This document shows positions 4,027 to 21,592 of a DNA stretch of 61,214 nt, in pieces; the stretch's first letter is position 1, and each line of letters begins with the position of its first letter. Position numbers and translations under genes: made by a program. Below the pieces are notes generated by a model. The model saw only the letters and a list, made by a program, of their open reading frames with translations. It was not told where the DNA came from and searched no databases. Source of the stretch: Acidobacteriota bacterium (lineage in GTDB: Bacteria; Acidobacteriota; Terriglobia; Terriglobales; Acidobacteriaceae); NCBI GenBank assembly GCA_003225075.1, contig QIAP01000049.1, forward strand, positions 1 to 61,214. Reading direction: 5' to 3'.

Positions 4027-4046
4027 TAACTCAATTCTCCGAAATC

Positions 4047-5165
4047 CTATCGGCCCCACACTGCGCGCCGGCCGGTGATAAAGTTAGCAAATGCTACGAT
4101 CGCTGCCGTATTTAACACCACGAAGGTGAAGGCAGCATCGGCGGCTCGTGCCACTGGGCCTTTCAATCTTGCGACCGCCAGCAGGCTCAATCCGTAGAAC
4201 GCAAGCTGGGCAACCAATGCGACCGTGTAAACCGAGCCCGAGAGCAAAGCGGAGGTTAGGAATGCCAGCACTAATGCAAATGGCACCATCAAGCGCATCA
4301 GCTTATGACTCACGAACTGAAAACGAATCGGATTGTCCCGGCTTAACAACCAGGGCGCGAGCTGTACGAGTTGATAGTTGCCGCTCAACGTTCTTACCTT
4401 TCGAGCAAACTCACGGCCCGGGCCCAGGTCCGGTTTATCCCACGCCCGGGCGCGAGGCTCGAATATTACTCGTGCCCCTTGGCGCACGACTTGCATGGGA
4501 AGATAGACGTCATCCAAAATCGTTTCCGGCGGCACAGGTACCAATAATCGGCGGCGGACCGCATAAAGCGCGCCAGTCGCTCCAACTACAGAGCCGCAGG
4601 CCGATTCCAGTTCGCGAATTTTTTTCTCGATGACCCAATAGAGCCCCAGTCCTTTGGCTGCTTCTCCCGCATCGGGGTCTCCCAGCATCAACTCACCGCT
4701 GACACAACCAACTTCCGGGTCGGCGAAATTTTCCGCCAGGAGCCGTACCGCCTTAGACTCGATAATCTGCCTCGCATCGGTAAAAACAATGACCTCGCCG
4801 CGCGCAACCTCGATGGCATCATTCAGTCCAGAAGCTTTGCCCCTGGATTCCAGATTCAGGACGACTCGAACCTGTTGGTTGCTGGCATACTGAGACAAAA
4901 TCTCGTTAGTTGCATCCGTCGAGCCGTCGGACACCACTACAATTTCGTACTGCTCGGCCGGATAATCCAGCTTCAGGAGGTTCCGTAACTTGCGCTCGAG
5001 CACATGGGCCTCGTTGCGAACTACCATCGCAATGGACACAACAGGCTCGTAGGGCGCCGATTTGACCAATTGGCAACGCCATCGACGGCGCAGCCACAGC
5101 CATCCCGCGTACCCTACGTAGGTGTACGCGATCACGGCTGTCGATGCCCAGAACACCCACTTCAT
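4047..5165 (-). CDS. Glycosyltransferase family 2, membrane-associated
   Basis: 372 residues. An N-terminal membrane helix is followed by a GT-A catalytic domain (about 40-270) with VVSDGSTDATNEIL, the DxD-like FTDARQ, a GELMLGD stretch and the acceptor-side DDVYLPMQVVRQG, then three to four C-terminal membrane helices. This is the cellulose synthase/hyaluronan synthase-like layout. The start overlaps the stop of the preceding sugar transferase gene (ATGA), so translation is coupled. It probably adds a sugar to the lipid-linked EPS repeat at the cytoplasmic face. The QxxRW motif of processive synthases is not evident, so it may be non-processive. Confidence 0.88.
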   Translation of the reverse strand: MKWVFWASTAVIAYTYVGYAGWLWLRRRWRCQLVKSAPYEPVVSIAMVVRNEAHVLERKLRNLLKLDYPAEQYEIVVVSDGSTDATNEILSQYASNQQVRVVLNLESRGKASGLNDAIEVARGEVIVFTDARQIIESKAVRLLAENFADPEVGCVSGELMLGDPDAGEAAKGLGLYWVIEKKIRELESACGSVVGATGALYAVRRRLLVPVPPETILDDVYLPMQVVRQGARVIFEPRARAWDKPDLGPGREFARKVRTLSGNYQLVQLAPWLLSRDNPIRFQFVSHKLMRLMVPFALVLAFLTSALLSGSVYTVALVAQLAFYGLSLLAVARLKGPVARAADAAFTFVVLNTAAIVAFANFITGRRAVWGR

Positions 5166-6532
5166 TGGGCGCCCCGTCCCAATAGGACAATTTTGAGCGT
5201 CTGAAACATGATCAGCAAATCGAGTCCCAGGGAAGCATTCTTAATGTAAAAGAGGTCATACTGGAGCTTCTCTCGGGCATCATCTACCGTGTTGCCGTAT
5301 TTGTATCGAACCTGCGCCCACCCCGTAATGCCAGGCCGAACCACGTGCCGCACCGGATAATAAGGAATTTCCTTGCTCAGCCAGTTCACAAACTCGGGTC
5401 GCTCAGGCCGCGGACCCACAAACGCCATATCTCCCTTTAGCACGCACCACAACTGCGGGATTTCGTCCAATCGTGAAATTCGGAGGAATTTGCCCGTTCG
5501 CGTGATGCGGGGATCATCATCACCGGCCCAGGTAGGACCGGTGTCGGCTTCAGCGTCCTGACGCATGGTGCGGAACTTGTAGCAATAAAAAATGACGTTG
5601 CCACGCCCTACCCGCTTCTGCCTGTAGAGCACCGGTCCTGAGGAGTCCAACTTAATGGCAAGAATTACAAAGGGAATGACCGGAAGCACAATTAACAAAG
5701 CGATTGAGGACACCAGGAAGGAAAGCATGCGCCGCATCAGCATAAAGCTGGGGCTGAAACGAAATCCGTCCGCGAAAATCAGTGAACTGGGATGAAGCAA
5801 TTCTACTTCTATTCTCCCCGACATCTTTTCCAACCAAGTGGTAGCTTCTTCGATCTTCACGCCCTTGAGACGCAATTGCAGCAATTCCTGGACGGGAATC
5901 GTGCCGCGACGGTCAGGCATGGCAACGATGACCCTGTGCACTCCCGCCTGCACAATGTTCATCAAATGGGAAGCGACCGATTCCCGAGTGAGCGCGCCGT
6001 CCAGATTTCCAGTCCAGCCAACCACTTCAATGCCTAACTCGGAGCGCTGACGTAAACCTTGCACCAAACGCTGCGCTCTCTCGCCAGTCCCCAGCACATA
6101 GACCCTCTCTCGAAGGTATGGCTGTTGCACCAGCCAACCATAGGCGGTCCGCCAGCCGAAGAGCGCCAGCGTGAGAATGATGAGCCCCATCAATGAGGAT
6201 CCGTTCCCCAACAGAAACCTGGGGAAGACCATTCCAACAAGGGCCAGCATGAGCGCCATTAATCCCGGCACCAGCAACAGACGGAAATAAAGGTCACCCT
6301 TGGCGTTGAAGCGCTCCGGATCGTACAGGTCAAACCAGTGGAAACAGATAAGTACTAATGCCGTCACCACCAGGATTTTCACATAGCCGTACTCGTAATT
6401 GAGTACCAGATAGCTATCGGCGCGGAACTGCAATACCGCGCCCAGGAGGAACGAAGTCCAAACGATCAGCGCTTCTCCGCCCAGCAAGATCAGCGTGCGA
6501 ACTGGGTAGTAAACATTGAACAGGCGAATCAC
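5162..6532 (-). CDS. Exopolysaccharide polyprenyl glycosylphosphotransferase
   Basis: 456 residues. It has four to five N-terminal membrane helices, a Rossmann-like CoA_binding_3 domain with RVYVLGTGERA (about 142-152), another hydrophobic segment near 275-295, and a C-terminal Bac_transf domain. That domain contains YRQKRVGRG, the FRTM motif, ITRTGKFLRISRLDEIPQL and GPRPERPEF. The family transfers a sugar-1-phosphate to undecaprenyl phosphate, the priming step of EPS assembly. The domain order matches the sugar transferases usually found in PEP-CTERM/exosortase EPS clusters. It ends in the ATGA overlap with the GT2 gene and starts 3 bases after the kinase-like gene. Confidence 0.93.
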   Translation of the reverse strand: MIRLFNVYYPVRTLILLGGEALIVWTSFLLGAVLQFRADSYLVLNYEYGYVKILVVTALVLICFHWFDLYDPERFNAKGDLYFRLLLVPGLMALMLALVGMVFPRFLLGNGSSLMGLIILTLALFGWRTAYGWLVQQPYLRERVYVLGTGERAQRLVQGLRQRSELGIEVVGWTGNLDGALTRESVASHLMNIVQAGVHRVIVAMPDRRGTIPVQELLQLRLKGVKIEEATTWLEKMSGRIEVELLHPSSLIFADGFRFSPSFMLMRRMLSFLVSSIALLIVLPVIPFVILAIKLDSSGPVLYRQKRVGRGNVIFYCYKFRTMRQDAEADTGPTWAGDDDPRITRTGKFLRISRLDEIPQLWCVLKGDMAFVGPRPERPEFVNWLSKEIPYYPVRHVVRPGITGWAQVRYKYGNTVDDAREKLQYDLFYIKNASLGLDLLIMFQTLKIVLLGRGAQ

Positions 6533-6535
6533 GCT

Positions 6536-7483
6536 TTACCCCTGTACCGTTTCCTGCATTTCCTTATTGTTTCCGTTAACGCCGTAGTAATACCGGCTGT
6601 AAGGCGACGAGTCTGCTTCAATACCGTTTAGCACGACGCCTATTAGATGCTTGTCCTGAAACTCGAGCCGCGCCTTTCGTGCCATGCCAAACGGAGTGGT
6701 GTTGGAGCGCACCACGATCAGCACGCCATCGCAGAAATTGGCCAAGAGGCTCGAGTCGGATACTGGCACCGTGGGCGGTGAATCAATGATGATCCAGTCG
6801 AACAGGGGCTCCACTCGCGTGAGCAGAAACTTCAACCGGCCGTTGGCCACAAGTTCTGCTGGATTCGAAACCGTCCGTCCCGATGGAATAAAGAACAGAT
6901 TTTCCATCGGTCCTCGTTGCATGACTGAAAACTCGTCGCTTTCGCCCAACAGGTACTCCGAAAGACCCGGAGTGCTGCTGGTTCCCAGTGCCTGGTGTAA
7001 ACGCGCCCCACGCAGATCTGCGTCGATGAGCAGCGCCCGGCGGCCATGTTGCCGTACCATGACCTGCGCCAGGTTAGCGGCCACGAAGGTCTTGCCTTCT
7101 TTGGGCAGGGCACTGGTAATCAGCACTTTTTTCAGAGGCATCTTCTCTCGCATCTGATAAAGGCGCGAGCGCAAGGTGCGAAATTCCTCCGCTCCATATT
7201 TCCGTTCATCGTCATTGAAGAACAGCATGCTCTTCGGATCTGGATTCCACTCGCTCTGCGCGCAACGGGCCAAGAGTGTGTCGAAGGTAAACGCGTTCGA
7301 GAATGCTGGACCTGCTGCGGCGGCGGACGCTGCGGTGGAGAGTGGCGCGCGTTCGATCACTGGGGGCATCCCCGCAGCCTCAACAGCGGGAACGTCCATC
7401 GGGTGCAAAGACTCTACGTGACCTCCCTGAGATGCTGCTCTCTCCTGTTCAGCTCTCTTAAGGGCTTCATGAATTCGACTCAT
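6536..7483 (-). CDS. CpsD/CapB-type tyrosine autokinase of the exosortase EPS system
   Basis: 315 residues. The N-terminus MSRIHEALKRAEQERA is typical of the autokinase found in exosortase-linked EPS loci. BY-kinase nucleotide motifs are present: Walker A ALPKEGKTFVAANLA, Walker A' LLIDADLRGARLH and Walker B IIIDSPP. The C-terminus has only a short tyrosine cluster (YSRYYYG), which could be the autophosphorylation site. Its start overlaps the stop of the ATPase gene by 4 bases (ATGA). It probably works with the Wzz-like protein two genes upstream to control polymer length and export. The kinase activity is a family inference. Confidence 0.9.
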   Translation of the reverse strand: MSRIHEALKRAEQERAASQGGHVESLHPMDVPAVEAAGMPPVIERAPLSTAASAAAAGPAFSNAFTFDTLLARCAQSEWNPDPKSMLFFNDDERKYGAEEFRTLRSRLYQMREKMPLKKVLITSALPKEGKTFVAANLAQVMVRQHGRRALLIDADLRGARLHQALGTSSTPGLSEYLLGESDEFSVMQRGPMENLFFIPSGRTVSNPAELVANGRLKFLLTRVEPLFDWIIIDSPPTVPVSDSSLLANFCDGVLIVVRSNTTPFGMARKARLEFQDKHLIGVVLNGIEADSSPYSRYYYGVNGNNKEMQETVQG

Positions 7484-8436
7484 ATTTTCCTTTCCTTGGG
7501 GAGGTCTGGATCAGACTGACGTAAGCGTTCTGCAAGTGTGGCCAATGTCCTCAATGCTTCCACTACATCAAACTTATCGGTGGTATTTGACTGAGGCGCG
7601 GGCGTCATGGCCGCCGAAGCGACGTTGTCGCTGAGATCGAAATCCCTGACAACGGTTTCGACCACCGCTGGCGCAACTACCTTCTGCTGGTCGACGAATG
7701 CACTCACCAGGCAATGTTCGCAGAGCAGGTTGACCACGCGTGGAATGCCGCTTGCATACCGATGAATCAGCGTCACCGCATCGGGATCAAATATCTGCTG
7801 CCCGTTCGAGCCCGCAATCCGCAACCGCTGTGTGACATATGCCCGCGTTTCTTCCAGCGCAAGAGGATGTGTCTTGGCTCGCAGCGTAAGTCGCTGCCGA
7901 AGCTGCCGCAATTGTGGTTGCTTCAATTTCTGCTCCAACTCCGGCTGGCCCACCAGGACGATCTGCAGTAATTTCTCGGTAAAAGTCTCCAGGTTGGTCA
8001 TAAGACGAATCTCTTCCAGAACCTCGTCACTCAGGTTCTGTGCCTCGTCCACAATCAACACCGCCGTCTCGCCCGCGCGGTACCGGTCGAGCAGCCAGTT
8101 GTAAAGCCGTAGCAAGACTTGACTCTTCGATCTGGAATCGCACGGAATGCCGAAGTCCGCCATCATGTAATCCAGGAACTGGGGCACATTCATGCGTGAA
8201 TTAAAGATGAAGGCAGTCGCCACCTGCTGAAGCCGCAACCATTCCAGAAGCTTGTTGATGAGGGTCGTCTTTCCGGTTCCCACTTCCCCCGTCAGCAACA
8301 CGAATCCCTTGCGGCTCTGGATGCCATAAGTCAGACACGCCAGGGCTTCTTCTGTATGCCGCGTCAGGAACAGATAACGCGGATCCGGATTGACATTAAA
8401 AGGATTCGCTTTTAATCCGAAAAATTCCTTGTACAT
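7480..8436 (-). CDS. ExeA-like AAA+ ATPase of the exosortase EPS system
   Basis: About 318 residues from the ATG at 8436; a longer reading from 8541 would run into the Wzz gene and adds a basic tail atypical of the family. The N-terminus MYKEFFGLKANPFNVNPDP is typical of ExeA/GspA-like ATPases. Walker A is TGEVGTGKTT and Walker B is VLIVDEAQNLS; a C-terminal helical lid follows. In exosortase-associated loci an ATPase of this kind accompanies the chain-length and kinase genes; its role is unproven. It starts 10 bases after the Wzz-like stop and is translationally coupled to the kinase gene. Confidence 0.9.
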   Translation of the reverse strand: MYKEFFGLKANPFNVNPDPRYLFLTRHTEEALACLTYGIQSRKGFVLLTGEVGTGKTTLINKLLEWLRLQQVATAFIFNSRMNVPQFLDYMMADFGIPCDSRSKSQVLLRLYNWLLDRYRAGETAVLIVDEAQNLSDEVLEEIRLMTNLETFTEKLLQIVLVGQPELEQKLKQPQLRQLRQRLTLRAKTHPLALEETRAYVTQRLRIAGSNGQQIFDPDAVTLIHRYASGIPRVVNLLCEHCLVSAFVDQQKVVAPAVVETVVRDFDLSDNVASAAMTPAPQSNTTDKFDVVEALRTLATLAERLRQSDPDLPKERKI

Positions 8437-8446
8437 GATGGTCGCT

Positions 8447-9997
8447 TTAGACCTCGACTGTCTCTTTCTCCTTACTTTCCTCAGGTGGTTGTTTCGACCG
8501 GCCCCAGAACTTATGGTTCTCGTCCTTGGTCTCGATACCATCCGTCAGCCAGGGCACCGAAACCAGCATCGGGAGGCCAAGTGCAGCAGCAACATCTTGC
8601 TCAGTTCGTATCGCCTTGTCTCGCAATTCGAGCCACAGGGCCAGTCCAAGTCCGAGGGCAAGTCCCATCCCTAAACCACCGCCCGTAAAAAGCAAGCGAT
8701 TGGGGAAGCTGGGAGTATCGGGCAGGTTCGCGGGATTCAGCAAACGCATCTGTTCGCCCTGTTGACGCCGTTCCATATCGGACGCCATCTCCGACTCACT
8801 CTTCTTTGCGAGCAGGTCCTGATAGAACTTCAATGCCGTGTCATAGTCGCGAGTCAGAGATTTGTATTGTTCCTCCACTGCGGGACTGAGCGCCACGCGC
8901 CCCTGATACACCCTGATGTCATCCTGCAGGCGTTTTTGGTCGCGCGACGCCTGCGCAATGACTCCATCGTATTGATGCACTTGTAGCCGCAGCTGTCGTA
9001 TTTCAGGGGGCTCATTCAGGTTGCCTTTGTCGGGAGAGTCACTGCCTTTCGATGCTGCGGTATTGACTTCGGCAAGCCTCTTTTTGACCTCGGCGATATC
9101 TGCCTTGGTCTTGATCACATCGGGATGGTCGTCGGTGTAGCGAGCCTGCAGTTGTAGAAGCTGGGTCTGCAAAGCGGTCAGTTGTTGATCCAGACTCTGC
9201 GGGTTGTTAGACGACTGGGACGATTTCCAGGCCGAAACCTGTTGCGCCAGCAGGGACTCGGTGTAGGCCTTGTCTTGCTGCGCCCGATTTAACGTCTGCG
9301 TGTTGGCGTCGAGCTGCGAATTCAACCCCATGAGGATCTTCATGTTGTTGTCTTCGTCCCCGGGAAGTTGCCCCATATACTGCCTTTTGAACACTGCCAG
9401 CTTGCTGTCCAGGCCGTCGAGATTGCGCTTGGCATCGGCCAATTGGCGCGTTAAAAAATCGGTGGTGCTCTGCGCCACTTGCTCGCGGGTCTTCAGGTTC
9501 TCCTCCAGCAACATCGAAGTGAGCGCGTCACAGATCTGCTGGGCTTGTCGCGGGTCTGAGGCGGTGAAGTTTACATAGAATCCGGGCACGTCGTTGTGTC
9601 CGGGCCTCTTTTTGTTGCTGGCCGGGCTCAGATCGGATTCCACCGGTTGGATCGTGAGGTTCTGCCGAATCTCGTCCATCACGTCGTCCGGGTTCCTGCC
9701 CTTGGCGAGCCCAAGCCGATCAATCATCGGCTGGAGGCGATTGCGGCTCAGCACCTGCTGCTGCATGGTCGCGATACGTTGGGTCAGGTCTTCAGTGACA
9801 ACTGACTTTACGTAGCCTTGTGGCACCTTCTGCTCTTCAACCAACACCAGTGACTGTGAGGTGTACTTGGGCGAGAAGGCATACGAGATCAGAAATCCAG
9901 CAACCGGTGCCAGCAGCGCCGGGATAAGGATCACCTTCACCCGACGCCGAAGCATTGCCAGATAGTCATCAATCGTTAATTCGCGATTTTCAATCAT
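8447..9997 (-). CDS. Wzz/GumC-type chain-length determinant protein
   Basis: About 516 residues. An N-terminal membrane helix (VILIPALLAPVAGFLISYAF) comes soon after the start. A large periplasmic coiled-coil region follows, rich in Gln and Lys, including an LQTQLLQLQARYTDDHPDV stretch. A second helix (LLFTGGGLGMGLALGLGLAL) precedes the cytoplasmic tail, with the proline-rich motif LPDTPSFPNR just before it. This is the polysaccharide co-polymerase layout. I favour the ATG at 9997 (MIENRELTIDDYL); an ATG at 10024 or a TTG at 10036 are alternatives and none has a strong Shine-Dalgarno. The kinase domain is encoded separately downstream, so this is a split GumC/BY-kinase arrangement. Confidence 0.88.
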   Translation of the reverse strand: MIENRELTIDDYLAMLRRRVKVILIPALLAPVAGFLISYAFSPKYTSQSLVLVEEQKVPQGYVKSVVTEDLTQRIATMQQQVLSRNRLQPMIDRLGLAKGRNPDDVMDEIRQNLTIQPVESDLSPASNKKRPGHNDVPGFYVNFTASDPRQAQQICDALTSMLLEENLKTREQVAQSTTDFLTRQLADAKRNLDGLDSKLAVFKRQYMGQLPGDEDNNMKILMGLNSQLDANTQTLNRAQQDKAYTESLLAQQVSAWKSSQSSNNPQSLDQQLTALQTQLLQLQARYTDDHPDVIKTKADIAEVKKRLAEVNTAASKGSDSPDKGNLNEPPEIRQLRLQVHQYDGVIAQASRDQKRLQDDIRVYQGRVALSPAVEEQYKSLTRDYDTALKFYQDLLAKKSESEMASDMERRQQGEQMRLLNPANLPDTPSFPNRLLFTGGGLGMGLALGLGLALWLELRDKAIRTEQDVAAALGLPMLVSVPWLTDGIETKDENHKFWGRSKQPPEESKEKETVEV

Positions 9998-10038
9998 CCC
10001 AATGTTCCGTTCCGGTCGCCCCATGGCGGCCTGCAAGG

Positions 10039-11535
10039 TTAGTCAAGCCTGATCGGTCGAGGATGCCAATCCAGACCAAAGGAAAGCACATGCCGCTGCG
10101 AACCGCGGCTACAACTCGTGGTGAAAATAAAATTCGGTCCTACGGTGCAAAACGAACTGTCAAACGCCAGGTCGCTGAACTGATAAGCCATAAACAAGCT
10201 GAAATCGGGCCCTAACTGCCGATGCAACCCGCCACCCGCGTATCCGTAGTTGTAAAACGCGGAATTCACGCCAAATAACAGATCCTGTTGCACCCGCTTG
10301 TTATGCGTATAGCCGACGTCGGCATAGAGATCCCATAATCGTCCCAGCTGCCGTTCATAGTTCATTCGCGCGATATCACTGACGGCTCCGGGAAAGAAGC
10401 CTGATCCGTTAGTGTCGTACCGGTCGTAATAAAGACCGACGCTTGCCTTGGGAAAGCGATAACGAAGCATGGCGCGTCCGCTCGCCGATAAGTGCTGATG
10501 CCTGCCCAACACGTCATTGGTCTGAGTAAGCTGTGGTCCGCCTCCGATGACAAAGTTCATCCGGCCGGAGATTGTGTGCCCGTAAAGCACGCTCGCTACG
10601 TGGGTGGCGAACGTGTCGGCGCCCCCCCCAGGGAAGCGAAAGTTCTGATATCCGTATACCAAAGCGATTTGATCGCGCCGGCTCAACGAATAGTTGTATC
10701 CCGCCTGTGTGGTCACTTGCCGGCTGTCGATCAGGCCCAGATTATTGTTGGTAAAGTGCATTAATCCATAAGCTCCCGCAACGGTGACAGAGGCACGGGG
10801 CGAGAGATTCTGGACGACGTCAGCCAGTCCGAGATTGGTAATTCGGGGCTGCTGGCCCAAGGTTCCAAACTGTCCTGGACCGAAGAAGTCAAAATTGGAG
10901 CGGCCGCCGAACACACCGCCGCCTAAAAATCCATTGCCGATACCGCCGGCACCCAGTTGCAATCCACTGGCGCCTCCGAAGGAACCGCCTCCGAACGACC
11001 CCTCAGGCAGATAGCTGAAGGAATCGCGAAGAGACAACTGACCGGTACGCCACAGGATCTTCTGGTCGGCATTTAAGTCGTGCACCTGATTGGCGCCGAT
11101 GCCCTTGGCACCGTAGAAGGCTGCTCCTGCGACGTAGTTCAGAGCCGTATCGTAGCGACTCCACAAGCGCTGTAAGGTGAGGCTTCCCATGGCGCGCGTG
11201 ACGGAATGTATAGACGAGTTTCCCGCCTGGCCGGCAATATTCGAATCCGCTGACTCGCTTATCTCGAGGCCCGGGAGCAAGAAACTGCGGGGAGTAATTG
11301 TGGGTTCCAGGGCGGGTTCATCCAATCCCGACAGCGGCGGGTTCTCAATAGGCCGCGGCGGCGGATTGTCCTGCCCGAAAGCCGGGGGCGGAGGTGTTCC
11401 TTCCTGCTGGCCGCTACCGGCAGGTTGCTGAGTGCTACCCGCGCTTTGCTGCGGCCCTGAGACGGATTGCGCCCACGCAGAGCCCCACGCCAGAACTAGC
11501 AGCAGCAACGACGTCGTTTGTCGGAGTTTGATCAT
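10039..11535 (-). CDS. Outer-membrane beta-barrel protein of the EPS locus
   Basis: About 498 residues from the ATG at 11535, which has AAGGA 5 bases upstream; this start gives a clean signal peptide ending near AWA-QS. A low-complexity Gln/Pro/Gly linker follows. The remainder alternates polar and aromatic residues in short beta-strand periods, with Gly-rich turns and frequent YxF/YxY ends, as in porin-like barrels. It sits between the Wza-like and Wzz-like genes, where exosortase EPS clusters often carry an uncharacterised barrel protein. It may form an outer-membrane conduit or anchor; function not assigned. Confidence 0.75.
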   Translation of the reverse strand: MIKLRQTTSLLLLVLAWGSAWAQSVSGPQQSAGSTQQPAGSGQQEGTPPPPAFGQDNPPPRPIENPPLSGLDEPALEPTITPRSFLLPGLEISESADSNIAGQAGNSSIHSVTRAMGSLTLQRLWSRYDTALNYVAGAAFYGAKGIGANQVHDLNADQKILWRTGQLSLRDSFSYLPEGSFGGGSFGGASGLQLGAGGIGNGFLGGGVFGGRSNFDFFGPGQFGTLGQQPRITNLGLADVVQNLSPRASVTVAGAYGLMHFTNNNLGLIDSRQVTTQAGYNYSLSRRDQIALVYGYQNFRFPGGGADTFATHVASVLYGHTISGRMNFVIGGGPQLTQTNDVLGRHQHLSASGRAMLRYRFPKASVGLYYDRYDTNGSGFFPGAVSDIARMNYERQLGRLWDLYADVGYTHNKRVQQDLLFGVNSAFYNYGYAGGGLHRQLGPDFSLFMAYQFSDLAFDSSFCTVGPNFIFTTSCSRGSQRHVLSFGLDWHPRPIRLD

Positions 11536-11542
11536 GATTTCC

Positions 11543-12178
11543 TTACGGGACAACAATCGTGTCTCCCGGCTTCAGGACGATATTTTCATCTATGGCTTCG
11601 CCCTTAACCACTTGTTTGTAGTTGAAAGGGAGCTTTTGCTGTTTGCCATTCATAATGCGAAGAATGTAGATTCCCTTCGTATTGGCGAATTGGGTAAAGC
11701 CCGCACTGGCCAATGCTTGCAGTACGGTCATATTGGGCGTAAGCGGCATAGCCCCGGTATGCAGAACTTCACCCAGTACAAAAATGCGTTGGCTGTTCAT
11801 CGCCGTGACCACAACCGTCACCCGCGGGTCGGCGATATATTTCTTGAGCTTTTCCGTCATTGCTGCGGCCAATTGCATGGGCGTCAGCCCGGCAGCCTGC
11901 ACGTCATCAAGAAGAGGCATTGATATCTTCCCGTCCGGGCGCACGGGAAGGGTTGCGGTCAAGTCTGGCTCTTTCCATACCGAGATGTGAAGCGTGTCAT
12001 CAGCACCTATGACGTAACTCGGTCCCGCGACTGATCCCGGTTCGCATTGTGTGCATTGTGCCTGAGCTGCCGGTGCGGACTTTGCCTTATCTTTTTCCGT
12101 GCCGCTGCTCTGCGCGCTCGCCTCTATCAACAGCGCGACCGTCGACAATGCCATTACAATGCCTATCTTGCGCTTCAT
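11543..12178 (-). CDS. Polysaccharide biosynthesis/export protein (Wza-like)
   Basis: About 211 residues from the ATG at 12178, preceded by AGGAGAGAGTA. A signal peptide (MKRKIGIVMALSTVALLIEA) is followed by a Poly_export domain with YVIGADDTLHISVWKEPDLT and RPDGKISMPLLDDVQAAG, then one SLBB-like domain with IFVLGEVLHTGAMPL and VLKPGDTIVVP at the end. No lipobox Cys is evident at the cleavage site, unlike enterobacterial Wza. The family forms the outer-membrane export channel for EPS. It lies 16 bases after the AAA+ regulator gene and 7 bases before the barrel gene. Confidence 0.92.
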   Translation of the reverse strand: MKRKIGIVMALSTVALLIEASAQSSGTEKDKAKSAPAAQAQCTQCEPGSVAGPSYVIGADDTLHISVWKEPDLTATLPVRPDGKISMPLLDDVQAAGLTPMQLAAAMTEKLKKYIADPRVTVVVTAMNSQRIFVLGEVLHTGAMPLTPNMTVLQALASAGFTQFANTKGIYILRIMNGKQQKLPFNYKQVVKGEAIDENIVLKPGDTIVVP

Positions 12179-12194: not shown

Positions 12195-13148
12195 CTAGGA
12201 AGCCCCGTATTCCCCGTAGCCAATCTGCTTCAATTTGTAGAGCAAAGCCTTGTAACTGATCTGTAGTTCCTCGGCGGCGCGCCGTCGGTTCCACCTCGTC
12301 CGGGTCAATACTTTAAGGATGAGAACCTTCTCCGCTTCCCGGGAAGCGGCACGAGCGGCCTGTTTCAAAGAAATCCGTTCCCCATTTAACGGCCGGTCTG
12401 ACTTCGTCAGCATCGACCGCAGCCCGCCCATGGCGACCGACTCGTCTCCCAAAGCCACAATTGCCTTGGCGGCATCCTCCAATTCGCGGATGTTCCCCGG
12501 CCAGGCATAATCTTGAAATAATTGCTGGGTTTGCGCACTCAGCACTGGCACCGGCCGCCGGAAATCCTCGGCATATTTTGCGAGAAAGAAACTCACCAGA
12601 TAGGGAATGTCATCGCGACGCTGCCGCAGCGGGGGCAAGCGCAGGCAAATTCCGCTGATGCGGTAATACAAATCTTCGCGCAATCGGCCCGACTTTACCT
12701 CAGCTTCAAGATCGCGTGAAGTGCCACATATTAGCCGCGCGCCAAAAACTGCTTTATGTCCGTTCTCCTCGCTCTTAGATAGTGCTTCAAACAGCTTTAT
12801 CTGGCAGTCAGGACTCAGGTCGCTGATTTCTTCCAGGAACAGCGTCCCTTGACCGAATAATCCGTCCGTTCCGCCGTTGAGATATTCGGGTCTCACGGTA
12901 GCGCAATGAGCGCTGCGGAAAACGTCCCCCTCATGCCGGGACATTTGGTGCATCCTCTGGGCCATGCTGCGCTTGCCCGACCCCGCCTCACCAATCAGTA
13001 GCACTGGAAGGTCACCGCGGGCCAGTTCCCGCACCATTGCCTCTACCGCCTGCATACTCGGGCTTACTGCCTCAACAAACATCGTTCTCCCCTGGTCGGA
13101 ACTCGGGACTGTCGTCTCTTCCCCTCTATGTGGAAAATCTCTATCCAT
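12195..13148 (-). CDS. AAA+ Fis-type regulator lacking the sigma-54 GAFTGA loop
   Basis: 317 residues, related to sigma-54 enhancer-binding proteins but altered. No receiver domain. Walker A is GEAGSGKR (53-60); Walker B is GTLFLEEISDL (101-111), Glu replacing the usual Asp. Between the HC motif (residues 81-82) and Walker B there are only 18 residues, against 36 in both other activators of this window, and the missing part contains GAFTGA, the loop that contacts sigma-54. RLREDLYYRI, PGNIRELE and a C-terminal Fis-type helix-turn-helix (about 285-310) remain. It is the first gene of the leftward EPS operon, 16 bases before the export gene. It likely binds DNA and ATP but may not remodel sigma-54 holoenzyme. 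Confidence 0.88.
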   Translation of the reverse strand: MDRDFPHRGEETTVPSSDQGRTMFVEAVSPSMQAVEAMVRELARGDLPVLLIGEAGSGKRSMAQRMHQMSRHEGDVFRSAHCATVRPEYLNGGTDGLFGQGTLFLEEISDLSPDCQIKLFEALSKSEENGHKAVFGARLICGTSRDLEAEVKSGRLREDLYYRISGICLRLPPLRQRRDDIPYLVSFFLAKYAEDFRRPVPVLSAQTQQLFQDYAWPGNIRELEDAAKAIVALGDESVAMGGLRSMLTKSDRPLNGERISLKQAARAASREAEKVLILKVLTRTRWNRRRAAEELQISYKALLYKLKQIGYGEYGAS

Positions 13149-13579
13149 GTTTACCCGGCGAACATGCAGCTATTTTGGACAAGTCCCAGAGTTCTTTGAA
13201 AGCACGACTGCTGCCATCTGCAGCAAATTGCAAATATGGGATGAGGCATCAGCTGAATAGTGTTTTCTATTAGTTAGATGAATATCCGAACCACCGGGCG
13301 TGCGCCGCATAGTGCCTTAACCTAACACCCTCCGGCACAAAAGAGAAAAGATTTGCCCATCTTAGGGTAATCATCGCCAGATTAATTGGGCACAATAAGG
13401 CAATAACCTACTTAAGTCTTTATTTCCCTGAATGATAGGAATGGTCCTCTCATATAGATAGAACAGTCGAGGTAGCCGCTTCCAACCCTTATCCTTCCCT
13501 GCCAACTATTAACGATGAAGTACAGGGATACATTGCGCCTACATCTCCGTTCGCATATTCTCTGTCTATCTTTTCCAGC
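13149..13579. promoter_or_regulatory. Divergent intergenic region between EPS operon and exosortase operon
   Basis: 431 bases with no credible ORF; A+T-richer than its flanks. It must hold the promoters for both divergent operons. A sigma-54-like stretch TTGGGCACAATAAGGCAAT (13386-13404, plus strand) has the GG and GC elements but a spacing one base short of the consensus, and a minus-strand candidate near 13310-13325 is one base long. Neither fits the strict rule, so I do not assign a sigma-54 promoter. No hairpin or riboswitch was recognised. Confidence 0.5.
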
Positions 13580-14494
13580 GTGAGCCCAGTCGCACAGATA
13601 GATCCGTTTGCACGGACGCGGAACTTTTCCGCCCGCCGCATTGTCTGGGCCGAATCGTTCGTCTTGCTGTTGCTAGTTGGCTGGCTGTATTTCTCGATTG
13701 TGCTGCACTTGGCCGGGCAATGGTGGCGCGACCCAAATTTCTCCCACGGCTTTTTCGTTCCCCTCTTTTCTCTGTTTGTGCTCTGGCAAAATCGCTCAAA
13801 GCTGGTAGCAATGCGTTTGAAGCCCTCTTGGTGGGGACTTCTCATTCTGGGCTTTGCTCTATCTACCCTGATCGTTGGTGTGTTGGGAGCGGAGCTGTTT
13901 CTCTCGCGGCTCTCTCTGTTGCTGGTAATCGCCGCGCTGGTTGTCCTGTTCGCCGGTTGGGAATCGTTCGCTGCCTTACTTTTTCCCTGGGCATTTCTGA
14001 TTTTGATGATCCCTATTCCCGCCATCATCTTTAACCAGATCACATTTCCCTTACAGATCCTTGCTTCCAAGCTGGCTGGTTTCGTGTTGCCACTGGCAGG
14101 GGTACCGGTTCTCCGGGAGGGAAATATCATCATGCTGCCCGAGATGGCTCTCGAAGTGGCGGAAGCCTGCAGCGGCATTCGCTCTCTGCTTTCTCTCGGG
14201 ACTCTGGCAATCATTTACGGCTACCTGATGGAGAGCAGAATTGTCAGTCGAATTCTTCTTGCCCTCGCCGCTGTTCCGATCGCCGTCGCCGCGAACAGCA
14301 TGCGGATTGTCGGTACCGGCCTGCTGGTGCAGTACTGGGACCCCGATAAAGCAGCGGGCTTCTTTCATGATTTCTCGGGATGGCTCATCTTTGTGGTGTC
14401 TCTGATCATGCTCTTCGTTCTGCACCGGCTGTTACGTCTGCTCTTGAGACGAAGTACTGAGGACACAGGCGTGATTGGAGAAGGCGGCAACTGA
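13580..14494 (+). CDS. Exosortase (EpsH/XrtA-type transpeptidase)
   Basis: 304 residues with about eight membrane helices. The conserved exosortase catalytic residues are visible: Cys197 in ACSGIRSLLSL, Arg242 in AANSMRIVGTG and His263 in FFHDFSGWLIF. The family cleaves PEP-CTERM sorting signals at the periplasmic face, analogous to sortases. The GTG at 13580 is the only start that keeps the first helix, but its ribosome site is weak, so the exact start is uncertain. EpsI follows as a separate gene; in some proteobacteria the two are fused. It is divergent from the EPS operon. I cannot decide the XrtA subclass without model scores. Confidence 0.93.
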   Translation: MSPVAQIDPFARTRNFSARRIVWAESFVLLLLVGWLYFSIVLHLAGQWWRDPNFSHGFFVPLFSLFVLWQNRSKLVAMRLKPSWWGLLILGFALSTLIVGVLGAELFLSRLSLLLVIAALVVLFAGWESFAALLFPWAFLILMIPIPAIIFNQITFPLQILASKLAGFVLPLAGVPVLREGNIIMLPEMALEVAEACSGIRSLLSLGTLAIIYGYLMESRIVSRILLALAAVPIAVAANSMRIVGTGLLVQYWDPDKAAGFFHDFSGWLIFVVSLIMLFVLHRLLRLLLRRSTEDTGVIGEGGN

Positions 14495-14495
14495 C

Positions 14496-15206
14496 GTGAT
14501 ACGTTCTCACTTGCAATTCGCACTCGCTGCCGTGCTGCTCACCGTAACTGCACTTTTTCTCCAGGCGCGCGGTAGGAGCGAAGTCTTTCCACCACGACAG
14601 CCGCTGTCCTCGTTGCCCCATGAACTAGCTAACTGGGTTGGAACCGATATCACTCTTCCTAAAGACACCCTCGAGATTCTGGGCCCCGGTGACTTCCTGC
14701 TGCGCCTGTATCGGTACGCCTCGCCACAAAACGAATCCCCAGGAAATAATCCGAGTCGTGACGTATCGGCCAAGGCTGCTTCGGCAAACGATCGGGATGT
14801 GGATCTTTTCGTCGCATACTTCCCCAGCCAGCGCGCGGGGGATACCATTCACTCCCCCAGGAACTGCCTTCCCGGCGCAGGCTGGTCACCTCTTGAATCC
14901 AAGCGGATTACGATTTCTGTTCCCGGCCGTGCGTCATTTCCGGCGAACCGTTACGTGATCGGAAAAGGCGTGGAGCGGCAACTGGTCCTGTATTGGTATT
15001 GGGCCCATGATCGCGGTGTCGCCAGTGAGTACTGGGCGAAGTTCCACCTGGTGGCGGATTCCATCCGCATGAACCGCAGTGATGGAGCTTTGATCCGTGT
15101 GACGACCCCGCTGAAGAGAGGGGAAAACGCCAATATGGCGGACGAACGCCTGCTTTCATTTGCCGGCCAAGTTGTTCCGATCCTCGACAACTACATACCC
15201 CGCTGA
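14496..15206 (+). CDS. EpsI-family exosortase-associated protein (DUF3485)
   Basis: About 236 residues from the GTG at 14496, one base after the exosortase stop, with AGGCGG 8 bases upstream; an in-frame TTG at 14475 is less likely. An N-terminal membrane helix (FALAAVLLTVTALFL) precedes a periplasmic domain with the family motifs LPHELANWVGTDI, VDLFVAYFPSQRAGDTIHSPRNCLPGAGW and LVLYWYWAHDRG. EpsI proteins accompany exosortases in EPS loci; the HSPRNCLPG motif with its conserved Cys is characteristic. The biochemical role is not established. Confidence 0.92.
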   Translation: MIRSHLQFALAAVLLTVTALFLQARGRSEVFPPRQPLSSLPHELANWVGTDITLPKDTLEILGPGDFLLRLYRYASPQNESPGNNPSRDVSAKAASANDRDVDLFVAYFPSQRAGDTIHSPRNCLPGAGWSPLESKRITISVPGRASFPANRYVIGKGVERQLVLYWYWAHDRGVASEYWAKFHLVADSIRMNRSDGALIRVTTPLKRGENANMADERLLSFAGQVVPILDNYIPR

Positions 15207-15407
15207 CAATTCTGGACACGCGAGACGGATGATCTCCGAACACACTCGGGCTTGGAGTTTATCTCTGGTCAATCACGTTGCCGACTATCTCCCTACACTG
15301 CGGAGTGACGCGAGTTACTTCCTCTGGCTTGCCACTTGAAGTACCTTAGTGCTAGCTACTCTGGAAAACCTGTTGGCGTAATTTGCGCGCCGCATTGGGA
15401 GAATTTG

Positions 15408-17690
15408 ATGAGGCATTCCCGCGCTTTCCGTTTGGTTTTGATTTTGGGTTTTACCGCCTCTGTGTTGATTGGTTGTTCGCGGGACCCCAACGTCCGCAAA
15501 CAGAAATATTTTGAAAGCGGCCAGCGTTATTTCGAAAAAGCAAAATATCGCGAGGCGGCCATTCAGTTCAGCAATGCAGTCCAAGTGGATCCCCGTTTCG
15601 TCCAGGCCCACTATCATTTGGCACAGACTTATCTGAAACTCCAGGAATGGACTCGCGCTTATCAGGAGCTCTCCCGGGCCATTGAAATTGACCCCGACAA
15701 CTATCAGGCAAGGATCGATCTCGCCAACCTGCTGATTGCAGGTCGCGACTTCAAGCAGGCGCAGGACCAGACTGACTTCCTGATGGCCAAACAACCGAAT
15801 AATCCAGAAGGTCACATCGCAGTTGCCAATCTCGATGCCGCCCGGGACAATCTTGTCGCCGCCCTGCAGGAAATGCAGAAAGCGGCAGAACTCGGCCCCG
15901 ATCGATGGGAAACCTATTTGAATTTCGCTCTCTTACAGATTCGCGCTAACCAGTCCGATGCTGCGGAAGCAAATTTCAAGAAAGCTGTCAGCTTGAATCC
16001 CAAGGCGATAAGCGCTCAGCTCGCCCTTGGCAGTTACTACCAGTCGCGAAGCCGCTTTCCGGAAGCGGAACAACAATTCCGGCATGCGATGGAAGCTGAT
16101 CCAAAGGATCCCGATTCTCGTGCCGCATTGGTACGTGTGTACATGGCAGAGGGGAAGAAGGCGGAGATCGAAGAGTTTCTGAAAGAGGTCAAACGCGATC
16201 TTCCAGACAAATCGGTCGGCTACCGCATGCTCGGGGACTACTATTTCGCCAGCGGCGATCTGGATAAAGCGGTTACCGAATACGGATCGCTGAACCAGGA
16301 GCATCCCAAAGACATTCAAGTCAAAAAGAACTACATCCAGCTCTTAATTCTCAAGAATCGAATTGCCGAAGCTCGCAAATTGGATGATGAAGTCCTTAAG
16401 ACGAGTCCCTCGGATACGGAAGCGCTGATTTTTAAGGGCGAGATTCAAATCGCCGATGGCCATGGGAATGACGCCGCTGAGTCTCTCCAATCTGCGCTCA
16501 AGGCTGATCCCAACAACGGTGTCGCACACTATCAGCTTGGGGTTGCATTTGACCAGATGGGCAATTTGGGGCGCGCAGAAAATGAGTGGCGCGAAGCTGG
16601 GCGCGTCCGTCCGGACCTACCCGACGTCCAGCACGCTCTGGCGGCAGTCGCTTTGCGCAAAGGCGACATGCAGGCGCTGGATCAAAGTGCAGATCAACTC
16701 ATCCGCCTGCAGCCCACAGTCGCCGATGGCTATGTGCTTCGGGCGATGGCGGAAATTAACCTGAACCGACTGGCCCAAGCCGAAACAGACATCCGGAAAG
16801 CCATGGAAGTCGCCCCGCAAAACCCCATCGGCTATAACCAGATGGGAAGATTGCGTCTAACGCAGAAGCAATACAGCCAGGCGGAAAAGTATTTTCGGCA
16901 GGCTCTGGAACGCGATCCTGCTTCGACAGATGGCCTGAACGGTTTGATGAACGTCTACCTGGCGCAAAAACAAACTGACCTCGCCATCACCGCCGCTAAC
17001 GCACAGTTAGCAAAGGTTCCGGATAGCAGTGCCTTTCACGATCTACTCGGCACGACTCTTTTTAACGACAAAAAAGATATGAAAGGCGCAGAAGCAGAAT
17101 TTAAGAGAGCCGCCGAACTTGACAAGAATAATTCTGACGCACTCGTAAAACTTGGTCAGGTCCAGGCAGCAGAAGGTTCCGCGGACCAGGCCATCGCCAC
17201 TTATCAGCAGTCTCTGAACAATAATCCGCGCGAAGTTCGCTTCTATATATTGATCGGCGAATTATTCGAGTCCAAGCGGGATCGGGAGAAAGCGAAACAG
17301 ATGTATCAAAAGGCGCTTGAAATCCAACCGGAAAATGCGCTGGCGTCTAATAATCTCGCTCGCGTAATGCTGCAGCAGGGCGACAATGTAGACGTTGCCC
17401 TCGCCATGGCACAAACGGCGCGACGCGGTATGCCTGATTCCCCAGCTTCGGCCGACACGCTAGGCTGGGCCTACTATCAGAAAGGAGCCTACAATACCGC
17501 AATTGATCTGTTCAAAGAAGCTTTGAAGAAGAATCCAGATGACGCCACGTTTCACTATCACCTCGGCCTTGCCTATCAAAAAGACAATCAACCAGCCCTT
17601 GCCAAACAACATCTCGAGCGGGTACTGAAGATCAATCCCAAATACACAAACGCAGAAGACGTTAGAAAGGCTTTGGGGCAGCTGATCTAA
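15408..17690 (+). CDS. TPR-repeat lipoprotein of the exosortase system
   Basis: About 760 residues from the ATG at 15408, preceded by GGGAG; an upstream ATG at 15336 would bury the signal peptide. The lipobox LIGC puts the lipidated Cys at residue 23. The rest is roughly 20 tetratricopeptide units of about 34 residues (for example the A..ALQEMQKAAELGPDRWE and A..YFRQALERDPASTD types). Large TPR lipoproteins of this kind recur in PEP-CTERM/exosortase EPS loci and probably scaffold the export machinery. The 200-base gap after epsI holds no recognisable terminator, so co-transcription with the exosortase is plausible. Confidence 0.92.
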   Translation: MRHSRAFRLVLILGFTASVLIGCSRDPNVRKQKYFESGQRYFEKAKYREAAIQFSNAVQVDPRFVQAHYHLAQTYLKLQEWTRAYQELSRAIEIDPDNYQARIDLANLLIAGRDFKQAQDQTDFLMAKQPNNPEGHIAVANLDAARDNLVAALQEMQKAAELGPDRWETYLNFALLQIRANQSDAAEANFKKAVSLNPKAISAQLALGSYYQSRSRFPEAEQQFRHAMEADPKDPDSRAALVRVYMAEGKKAEIEEFLKEVKRDLPDKSVGYRMLGDYYFASGDLDKAVTEYGSLNQEHPKDIQVKKNYIQLLILKNRIAEARKLDDEVLKTSPSDTEALIFKGEIQIADGHGNDAAESLQSALKADPNNGVAHYQLGVAFDQMGNLGRAENEWREAGRVRPDLPDVQHALAAVALRKGDMQALDQSADQLIRLQPTVADGYVLRAMAEINLNRLAQAETDIRKAMEVAPQNPIGYNQMGRLRLTQKQYSQAEKYFRQALERDPASTDGLNGLMNVYLAQKQTDLAITAANAQLAKVPDSSAFHDLLGTTLFNDKKDMKGAEAEFKRAAELDKNNSDALVKLGQVQAAEGSADQAIATYQQSLNNNPREVRFYILIGELFESKRDREKAKQMYQKALEIQPENALASNNLARVMLQQGDNVDVALAMAQTARRGMPDSPASADTLGWAYYQKGAYNTAIDLFKEALKKNPDDATFHYHLGLAYQKDNQPALAKQHLERVLKINPKYTNAEDVRKALGQLI

Positions 17691-19951: not shown

Positions 19952-21013
19952 CTAATCCGCGGCCACAGTCGAATTTGCCAATTCAGCCTGCCGGCGTCGC
20001 GTGCGATTAGAAGGCAGTCCCGCATCGCGAATCTTATAAAGCAGCGCGCGGTAGCTGATGCTTAGAGCTCGAGCCGATTGCTTTCGATTCCAGTGATTGG
20101 CTTGCAGCACTTTTAGGATCACCTTGCGTTCCAGTTCGCGCACCGCCTGGCGGGTCAACTTTTTTAGCGAAATAGGACCGTCGAGATTAATGTCCGGATT
20201 GAACATTTCCTGTTCACGCGTTACCAGGTCGCTGCTGATAGCCTCTTCATTACCCAGAATCACGTAGCGTTTCACCAGATTTTCAAGTTCCCTGATATTC
20301 CCGGGCCAGTGGTACTTCTGCAGGAGACCCATTACTTCGCCCGATAGCGCCCGCGCGCGGCAGTTGTACTTGCGGTTGTAATACTCCAGGAAGTAATGCA
20401 CCAGATCTTCGATGTCGCCCCGCCTTTCGCGCAGGGGCGGAAGGTACAGATTTACTACGTTGATGCGATAGAACAAATCCTGGCGGAATGTTCCACTTTC
20501 AATTTCATGCTCCAGATGCCGGTTGGTCGCGCACACCACCCGCACTTCGACTTTCTTATCCTCTTGCGCTCCAATACGGCAGAATTGGCCATCCTGCAAT
20601 AGCTGCAGCAACTTGGATTGAAGTCCCAGATCCAATTCAGAAATTTCATCCAGAAATAGGGTTCCCCGATGTGCCATCTCCACGCGGCCCGGTTTCATTC
20701 CGAAAGCGCCCGTGAACGCGCCCTTTTCGTAGCCAAAAAGCTCACTTTCCAGCAACGTGCCCGGAATCGCGGGGCAGTTGACTTTAACGAATGGCCCACT
20801 CTTCCAAGGCGACAAGGTGTGGATCATACGGGCAATGATGTCCTTGCCCGTGCCGCTTTCGCCTTGAATCAGCACTGGGACATTTGCGCCAGCCACCTTG
20901 TCCAACCGCTCCCGTAGCGCTTGCATGCCCTCGGAATGGCCGAAGATGACGGCCTCGGGCGGAATTTCGCCAAGGGCTTGAATCAGAGCACTAACAGAAT
21001 TTGTCGTCGTCAT
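19952..21013 (-). CDS. Sigma-54-dependent transcriptional activator without receiver domain
   Basis: About 353 residues from the ATG at 21013; a longer reading from 21088 adds a Cys-rich stretch that looks non-coding. The AAA+ domain carries Walker A GESGTGKD, an intact ELFGYEKGAFTGAF sigma-54 contact loop, Walker B GTLFLDEISEL, the arginine-finger region and PGNIRELEN. The C-terminal Fis-type helix-turn-helix is NHWNRKQSARALSISYRALL. It has only a short N-terminal extension and no receiver or GAF domain, so activity may be set by expression or a partner. Upstream and on the same strand is a PilZ gene; downstream is the Ig/propeller lipoprotein. Confidence 0.92.
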   Translation of the reverse strand: MTTTNSVSALIQALGEIPPEAVIFGHSEGMQALRERLDKVAGANVPVLIQGESGTGKDIIARMIHTLSPWKSGPFVKVNCPAIPGTLLESELFGYEKGAFTGAFGMKPGRVEMAHRGTLFLDEISELDLGLQSKLLQLLQDGQFCRIGAQEDKKVEVRVVCATNRHLEHEIESGTFRQDLFYRINVVNLYLPPLRERRGDIEDLVHYFLEYYNRKYNCRARALSGEVMGLLQKYHWPGNIRELENLVKRYVILGNEEAISSDLVTREQEMFNPDINLDGPISLKKLTRQAVRELERKVILKVLQANHWNRKQSARALSISYRALLYKIRDAGLPSNRTRRRQAELANSTVAAD

Positions 21014-21155
21014 AATAGATTTCTCATTGCCACACCGCGTACTGGTGCACCCGGAGAGCCAAACGAAAGAGACACATCCCCTAGGCACTAAAAACGCTGT
21101 TAACTACACCATTTCTAAAAACTTAGAGAGCCTCGCCGACAAGAGATATTAGACT

Positions 21156-21182: not shown

Positions 21183-21208
21183 GAGGCTTTGGCTGTGGGA
21201 AAAGATTT

Positions 21209-21592
21209 TCACACGGAAGAAGTAAGTTTCCGTCTTACCCGGGTGGCCTTGGCACTGGAATGGTTCAGTAGAGGACGAGAGAATTTTAGACCGAGCAGAT
21301 AGTAACCTTCGGCGTGGGTTACCCTCACCGCCTTAGCACGCAATGTTCGGGAGGCCCGGGGGAGGCTAGCGGCGGCGGCCAGAGGTGCGCTGGGAATTTC
21401 GAGTAGAACCTGTGCTGAATGCGGCAAAGCTCGGCGCACTGCAACCAGGGCTCCGCCAGCGCCTATGTTCAGTGCGGTTGCGAACTCCAGGAATTCTTTA
21501 CCCTTTTCGTCACGGCTGCGCACAAAAACGGGGATTGCCAAGGGTAAACGCATCCACTTGCGCCGATCAATTTCTGGTCCCCTTCGAATCAA
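21209..21592 (-). CDS. PilZ-domain protein
   Basis: 127 residues. The cyclic-di-GMP-binding pattern appears as RRKWMRLPLAIPV (RxxxR-type motif, about residues 10-22) and, about 27 residues later, ALNIGAGGALV in place of the usual [DN]xSxxG. The Ser of the second motif is replaced by Gly/Ala, so nucleotide binding is uncertain. The start is TTG at 21592 with AAGGGG upstream; no better start exists in frame. Adjacent to the sigma-54 activator, it may report cyclic-di-GMP to surface or EPS functions. Confidence 0.72.
   Translation of the reverse strand: MIRRGPEIDRRKWMRLPLAIPVFVRSRDEKGKEFLEFATALNIGAGGALVAVRRALPHSAQVLLEIPSAPLAAAASLPRASRTLRAKAVRVTHAEGYYLLGLKFSRPLLNHSSAKATRVRRKLTSSV

Follow-up and report, generated by a model that had tools for sequence, protein, structure and literature searches.

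Enhancer-binding proteins (EBPs) contact sigma-54 through the GAFTGA motif, and TyrR is an EBP relative without this motif. Others have been described. In the portions of the literature consulted here, NtrC of Caulobacter and of Rhodobacter capsulatus and VpsR of V. cholerae are presented as GAFTGA-less EBPs that act at sigma-70 promoters (PMC10274813). VpsR works with sigma-70 polymerase and c-di-GMP according to passages of a paper that elsewhere terms it sigma-54-dependent, and which also names R185 and N186 of FleQ as c-di-GMP residues (PMC9303241). From similar extracts, FleQ represses or activates EPS operons (PMC10723142), a sigma-54 site with an upstream activator motif accompanies exosortase systems in Proteobacteria (PMC1569441), and PspF is inhibited in trans by PspA (PMC3791423). 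A 2025 survey of sigma-54 regulons retains only GAFTGA-bearing EBPs (PMC12316311), and the words Acidobacteri, exosortase and exopolysaccharide are absent from its main text by term search.

The locus studied here lies in a 61,214-nt stretch of DNA (the window), in which an EPS operon is headed by a GAFTGA-less EBP paralogue, hereafter the loop-less protein (Table 1). Like the GAFTGA-less NtrC proteins, it is an NtrC-type EBP with an L1 deletion spanning GAFTGA, and loss of NtrC in Caulobacter leads to a mucoid, EPS-dependent phenotype (both as given in parts of PMC10274813). Those proteins are whole response regulators with a kinase, whereas the loop-less protein lacks a receiver, has a degenerate Walker B and sensor I and is encoded behind a predicted promoter of the sigma-54 type. 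VpsR is likewise a GAFTGA-less EBP that controls an EPS locus, and its AAA+ fold is matched about as well as those of many ordinary EBPs, but it uses sigma-70 and c-di-GMP as far as the excerpts go, and the loop-less protein has no N-terminal domain and a sigma-54-type promoter. FleQ of Pseudomonas aeruginosa is comparable as an EBP that represses or activates EPS operons; it also serves sigma-54 promoters and partners FleN, whereas here the loop is lost. The PspF/PspA pair provides a sensor-less EBP under an inhibitor in trans, although PspA, in the text seen, is alpha-helical and no EBP, and the putative inhibitor here is a paralogue of the activator. The PrsK/PrsR/PrsT PEP-CTERM system shares the sigma-54 site with its upstream activator motif, the exosortase and PrsT; in the sections available, its motif is confined to Proteobacteria and precedes PEP-CTERM genes (PMC1569441), whereas the enhancer site here differs from the TTTACA core named in that paper, precedes an EPS operon and is joined by an activation-dead paralogue. 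In titles and abstract openings of the open-licence literature, we found no account of a loop-less paralogue inside a sigma-54 operon or of a loop-less family in Acidobacteria, nor of self-limiting feedback by a dead paralogue of sigma-54 activators. GAFTGA-less EBPs are already known; what is new is a loop-less paralogue heading an operon with a conserved sigma-54 promoter.

Table 1. Genes, protein motifs and predicted control elements of the window (window coordinates)
Feature	Coordinates	Strand	Basis
Loop-less AAA+ EBP paralogue, 317 aa, ATG start	12195..13148	-	ORF translation, Pfam; no N-terminal sensor domain matched
Site of missing L1/GAFTGA loop, residues 83-100, 18 aa vs 36	12849..12902	-	alignment
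Walker A GEAGSGK, residues 53-59; G56, G58 and K59 in 61/61 relatives	12972..12992	-	alignment
Degenerate Walker B LFLEE, residues 103-107	12828..12842	-	alignment
Fis HTH recognition helix LQISYKALLYK, residues 295-305; invariant in 61/61 except 2nd position	12234..12266	-	alignment
Predicted sigma-54 -24/-12 promoter TGGCAGCAGTCGTGCT, 52 nt before ATG of loop-less gene, into EPS operon	13201..13216	-	
Predicted enhancer site (UAS) GGGCAAATCTTTTCTC, upstream of sigma-54 promoter at a start-to-start distance of 142 bp	13343..13358	-	
Predicted EBP1 sigma-54 promoter TGGCTCTCCGGGTGCA, 32 nt before EBP1 ATG	21046..21061	-	
Predicted EBP1 UAS GGGAAAAGATTTTCAC, 151 bp upstream of EBP1 promoter	21197..21212	.	
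Poly_export/SLBB EPS export protein, next operon gene, ATG at 12178	11543..12178	-	Pfam/profile match
Conserved operon protein without Pfam hit, outer-membrane type by eye	10039..11556	-	Pfam search, synteny
Wzz-type chain length protein	8447..10036	-	Pfam
XrtA/PEP-CTERM-type ATPase; true start possibly internal	7480..8541	-	301.9 bits, slightly below cut-off 324.5
EPS tyrosine autokinase-like protein	6536..7483	-	TIGR01007 above cut-off
EpsB-type glycosyltransferase	5162..6532	-	TIGR03013
Glycosyltransferase family 2-like protein	4047..5165	-	every match below cut-off
Presumed O-antigen-ligase-like membrane protein (label assumed by us)	2719..4059	-	synteny
Exosortase, divergent	13580..14494	+	profile match
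EpsI family protein	14475..15206	+	profile match
PrsT TPR protein	15336..17690	+	profile match
EBP1, intact GAFTGA, 353 aa from ATG, no sensor domain matched	19952..21013	-	Pfam
Histidine kinase-like protein beside EBP2	21949..22875	+	label from sequence reading
EBP2, response regulator with intact GAFTGA	22872..24284	+	Pfam

Pfam searches of the loop-less protein returned a two-piece match to Sigma54_activat (PF00158; 91.8 bits against a cut-off of 20.2), the best piece covering profile positions 94-165 of 168, together with the AAA lid and the Fis HTH (PF02954, 41.4 bits). Cys82 of the HC motif is separated by 18 residues from Gly101, which stands ahead of Walker B. The same spacing was 36 residues in all 16 EBP1 and all 13 EBP2 sequences, both window activators included, and 14-28 residues in all 61 loop-less relatives from the same family (Acidobacteriaceae). 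The 36-residue stretch of the intact EBP1 and EBP2 holds GAFTGA or a close variant, which sequence comparison found to be missing from the window protein. In Walker B, EE replaces DE, and the sensor I Asn is replaced by Ser144; the arginine-finger motif REDLYYR and the sensor II motif GNIREL are present. An earlier note on this DNA had described Walker A, the arginine-finger region and the Fis HTH as kept, 18 residues in place of 36 between the HC motif and Walker B, GAFTGA lost and Walker B reading LEE, and its counts proved exact. Of the features of a sigma-54 activator, the protein thus has the AAA+ domain, arginine fingers, sensor II and Fis HTH, and lacks GAFTGA in L1, the Walker B DE and the sensor I Asn. 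It did not reach the cut-offs of the PrsR (TIGR02915; 158.6 bits against 502.6, with no receiver match) or PspF (TIGR02974; 132.5 against 443.55) models. It also differs from TyrR, having no N-terminal domains and scoring only 136.1 bits with the TyrR model (NF008085; cut-off 576).

Conservation among the 61 relatives was uneven. The arginine fingers are kept at R157 in 58 and at R163 in 50, and sensor II at G218 and N219 in all 61 and at R221 in 45; some members of the family have thus lost the second arginine finger or the sensor II Arg. Catalytic residues have decayed as well: the Walker B Asp is left in 8/61 and the Glu in 52/61, and the sensor I Asn in none. The recognition helix is near-identical across the paralogues (ISYRALLYK in EBP1, ISYKALLYK in EBP2 and LxISYKALLYK in the loop-less form), and the three therefore probably recognise the same type of site. 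An AlphaFold2 model of the loop-less protein (pLDDT 87.8, pTM 0.73), a check proposed at the outset, matched the structures of sigma-54 activators, with NtrC1 (1ny5) at Z 24.7, rmsd 2.1 and 220 aligned residues. The FlrC, PspF and NtrC1 structures matched at Z > 23, and FleQ and PspF chains fell between NtrC1 and VpsR (7v2b; Z 22.8, rmsd 2.9, 215 aligned), with many ordinary EBPs at similar Z.

Of 200 family genomes, at least 47 had the loop-less form, and reading of these 47 loci showed GAFTGA in none of them. An exosortase matched in 46 of these 47 genomes versus 70 of the 153 others (Fisher p = 3e-12, with relatedness uncontrolled). A sample of 200 genomes of the class gave 51 profile matches (E 1e-80 or better); 43 came from other families, and 40 of these were inspected (G306, G348 and G352 were left out). 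Thirty-eight of the 40 are loop-less, with 17-31 residues in place of 36; the loop is intact in the other two, which belong to family f9 and also precede the EPS export gene. An assembly error or local deletion, which the earlier note had named as a finding that would overturn its reading, is ruled out since the loop-less form is common to so many genomes.

In both trees the loop-less proteins make up one side of one branch, with 61 of 100 rows in the family tree (support 100/100) and 53 of 86 in the class tree (support 100/99). Repeated independent loop loss within this main clade is unneeded, given the single branch in both trees. The trees are unrooted, and the midpoint root used to draw the class tree falls within the loop-less side, setting L226 apart; the clade would have one origin if the trees are rooted among the intact EBPs, the part that holds the genome's other EBPs. 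Outside the family the Walker B Asp is kept in 37 of 38 class members, the Glu in 26 and the sensor I Asn in one. With the Asp kept outside the family and mostly lost inside it, its decay seems to have followed the loss of the loop and of the sensor I Asn. The loop-less gene is under purifying selection, judged from close pairs (dN/dS 0.049-0.100 in seven of nine, the other two being saturated), which makes a pseudogene unlikely. Some members sit on long branches in the family tree.

Several sequences were dropped before these counts, namely L088 and L089 (whose reads are partial or in two frames), the EBP1 of L056 (run of N) and of L132 (run of N in L1), and a divergent second copy in L101. 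L130 and L131 were excluded from the loop-less clade counts. The loop-less gene of L089 (8812-9884) and L088 (4909-6142) occupies two overlapping frames, reflecting a frameshift or sequencing error. The more divergent second copy of L101 (G154; 16106-17086, minus strand) lies near a second Wzz/kinase pair, and its arginine-finger region no longer matches. A record named Verrucomicrobia AV16 (L059) has a loop-less gene whose branch, next to acidobacterial ones, is very short; the contig is perhaps misbinned.

Gene order at the locus is well conserved. The stop codon of the loop-less gene lies 16 nt before the ATG (12178) of the Poly_export gene, so the protein does head the EPS operon as first proposed. 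In a family synteny sample of 64 stretches of 7 kb or more, with some genomes represented twice, Poly_export was the next recognised gene in 60, at an open-frame gap of no more than 153 nt. Of the other four, L089 has the split gene and then Poly_export, and three stretches end before Poly_export. Among class loci Poly_export came next in 35 of 38, with a different EPS gene in L228, L241 and L246. On the opposite flank, the nearest recognised gene was a divergent exosortase in 53/64 family stretches, which answers the question of the earlier note whether the deletion is conserved beside exosortase EPS operons; the figure of 16/38 at class level indicates that the tie to the exosortase is weaker outside the family. 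EBP1, the kinase and EBP2 sit past PrsT in the window and in several relatives, and the genome has rpoN. An intact EBP1 is the nearest upstream recognised gene, on the same strand and 302-462 nt off, in three of the 38 class loci (L222, L231 and L232). The same EPS genes occur without the loop-less gene at eight loci from four sibling genera.

Other arrangements were seen at individual loci. In L225 (6106-7161, plus strand) and L227 (6529-7617, minus strand), both f9, a GSFTGA-intact EBP precedes the EPS export gene where the loop-less gene would otherwise stand, and these EBPs do not group with the loop-less clade in the class tree. The stretch from exosortase to loop-less gene, mostly 0.5-0.9 kb, reaches about 3.4 kb in L058 and 5.2 kb in L087 through insertion. 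An EBP1-like protein in L235 (G360; 12217-13359, minus strand) has GSFTDA instead of GAFTGA.

Promoters were sought with a strict sigma-54 pattern, GG-N10-GC. A -24/-12 match on the operon strand between the exosortase and the loop-less gene was found in 44 of 51 deduplicated loci, compared with 4 on the other strand and a mean of 1.8 (maximum 6) in shuffled sequences; the seven loci without a strict match include some with near-matches by eye. At class level 28 of 37 loci matched, against 11 on the other strand and a shuffled mean of 0.9 (maximum 4); L210 is omitted for its short upstream stretch although it has a match. A palindromic UAS, GGGNAAANNNTTTCYC, was present upstream of the promoter with at most one mismatch and at 40-260 bp in 38 of 42 loci (shuffles mean 0.23, maximum 2). 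Its distance from the promoter had a median of 134 bp and a 10th-90th percentile range of 128-145 (41 loci). The consensus was built from the same loci, so the count of 38/42 is on its own circular. A partly independent test came from EBP1: in the window, a layout matching that of the EPS operon, with sigma-54 promoter and UAS, precedes the intact EBP1 gene, and 7 of 16 EBP1 rows, two of which share one genome, pair a UAS with a relaxed promoter pattern. The spacing is 151 bp in the window; with the relaxed pattern, six of the 15 other rows show 151 or 141 bp, and a strict sigma-54 promoter lies upstream of EBP1 in 6 of 16 rows. For EBP2 and the kinase no consistent UAS pair was found, and the strict promoter occurred in 1/14 and 1/15.

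At the eight loci without the loop-less gene, a strict sigma-54 match precedes the export gene in six, four of which have a UAS with at most two mismatches at 128-185 bp; a seventh match, in L135, lies deep in an open frame and is doubtful. These loci keep the sigma-54 match, and intact EBPs thus seem sufficient there. In L133-L137 and L142, which lack the gene, there is often a second sigma-54-like match toward the exosortase, such as TGGCAGGTCAATTGCT in L136. Across the class the UAS was matched only weakly and at scattered distances. Genome-wide, the sigma-54 pattern alone was uninformative (15 matches versus 14 for the reversed control), and the UAS with at most one mismatch gave 74 matches versus 25 in the control. 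Beyond the EPS operon and EBP1, the 29 loci of the first 30 UAS matches plus the window contained three relaxed pairs (L156, L162 and L166). The other exact genomic UAS matches are G000:C29:18154, C182:15558 and C244:18599 (L153, L155 and L156). L156 has a relaxed sigma-54-like match 147 bp from the UAS, before a 397-aa frame, and may be a further target; L153 and L155 have no such relaxed match near the exact UAS.

A second case of loop loss was found at the same operon position. In G018 (L130 4240-5394, plus strand) and G021 (L131 4777-5850, minus strand), an EBP1-like protein heads the EPS operon with GAFTGA degraded and Walker B still DE. Both cluster inside EBP1, apart from the main loop-less clade (100/95), and by this placement theirs is a separate loss. 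G018 has an additional EBP1-type gene with 70% identity to the window EBP1, and in G023 and G144 the EBP1 at the EPS operon head is intact. No sigma-54 match was found upstream of the EBP1-type operon heads in G018, G021, G023 and G144, and the second loss may therefore belong to another control mode. That an EBP1 copy lost its loop separately at the same operon head suggests that the position selects for loop loss.

The conserved sigma-54 promoter and enhancer site indicate that intact EBPs probably drive EPS expression through sigma-54, with a loop-less protein that is probably unable to drive its own operon. Having lost the L1 loop and key catalytic residues, it could not remodel the sigma-54 holoenzyme, and activation through sigma-54 is not expected of it. 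That the loop is missing from a protein whose own operon has a conserved sigma-54 promoter points to a dead paralogue acting in self-limiting feedback, and we hypothesize, with a probability of about one in two, that the loop-less protein is an activation-dead anti-activator in negative feedback on the EPS operon. In this scheme EBP1, and perhaps phosphorylated EBP2, would bind at the palindromic UAS and from there open the sigma-54 promoter, and the loop-less protein would be the first product of the operon. With its intact Fis helix it would occupy the same UAS as the activators, and with Walker A, arginine fingers and lid intact it may enter their rings; competition with the activators, or their poisoning, would then cap EPS transcription. 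Loop loss, its distribution and long conservation, operon position, the promoter and UAS motifs, the invariant helix and the decay of Walker B and sensor I are all read from sequence. We infer binding of the UAS by the loop-less protein from its helix and the shared motif, and mixed rings and a negative sign of its effect would follow from the same reading. Of what the earlier note had inferred, descent from sigma-54 activators with the contact loop lost and the DNA helix kept, fixed at the head of (mostly exosortase-linked) EPS operons, stands. Its suggestion of a repressor or decoy on the same sites is now the best-fitting reading, with binding as a deduction from helix and motif. Independence from sigma-54 can fit the protein but not the operon, which carries the sigma-54-type promoter in 44 of 51 loci.

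A sigma-54-independent activator role is a rival reading only. It belongs to an explanation along the lines of VpsR and FleQ, by which the loop-less protein would be a ligand-switched activator or repressor at a sigma-70 EPS promoter, needing ATP binding but no hydrolysis. The extracts consulted do describe GAFTGA-less EBPs at sigma-70 promoters (PMC10274813, PMC9303241) and FleQ at pel (PMC10723142). The Walker A lysine is kept in 61/61 while catalytic residues have decayed, and the fold matches VpsR, but VpsR was not ranked above many ordinary EBPs. The conserved promoter is also of the sigma-54 type, sigma-54 being the pattern searched for, and the protein has no N-terminal domain. The c-di-GMP residues of FleQ, R185 and N186, which we take to correspond to Gln64 and Arg65 of the window protein, vary on this assumed mapping, the first position being Arg in 21/61 relatives and the second mostly Arg (46/61). 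We regard this explanation as unlikely.

A co-activator role also has a low probability. Here loop-less protomers would give DNA binding and ring stability and EBP1 the L1 loops and ATPase, in positive feedback. The ring features kept in most relatives would suit such a role, and an operon-encoded subunit could equally be a co-activator. In the part of PMC12054792 available, protomers of the PspF ring differ in state and protomer 1 makes the largest sigma-54 contact, from which it follows that not every subunit need carry the loop. Against this, the EPS locus occurs in sibling genera without a loop-less gene, in most cases with a sigma-54 match (the eight loci above), and some relatives no longer have the second arginine finger or the sensor II Arg. 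That the protein is an ex-regulator kept for a non-transcriptional role, or a nascent pseudogene, would fit the decay of its AAA+ motifs, the two-frame locus L089 and the long branches, but is made very improbable by the dN/dS of seven of nine pairs, the invariant recognition helix and the fixed position.

The anti-activator reading has consequences beyond this locus. The GAFTGA-less EBPs found in the literature act at sigma-70 promoters (PMC10274813), and the loss described here falls within an operon with a sigma-54 promoter. As a more tentative extension, the class may contain a family of natural 'poison subunits'. Such a paralogue would have lost the sigma-54 loop a single time, kept nucleotide binding, ring contacts and its DNA helix, and become the first gene of a sigma-54 operon restrained by its own anti-activator, at a position that selects for such loss. 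The question of mixed rings in EBPs becomes testable with natural proteins. Acidobacteria are an abundant soil group, and for their exosortase-linked EPS the locus supplies candidate cis-elements and regulators.
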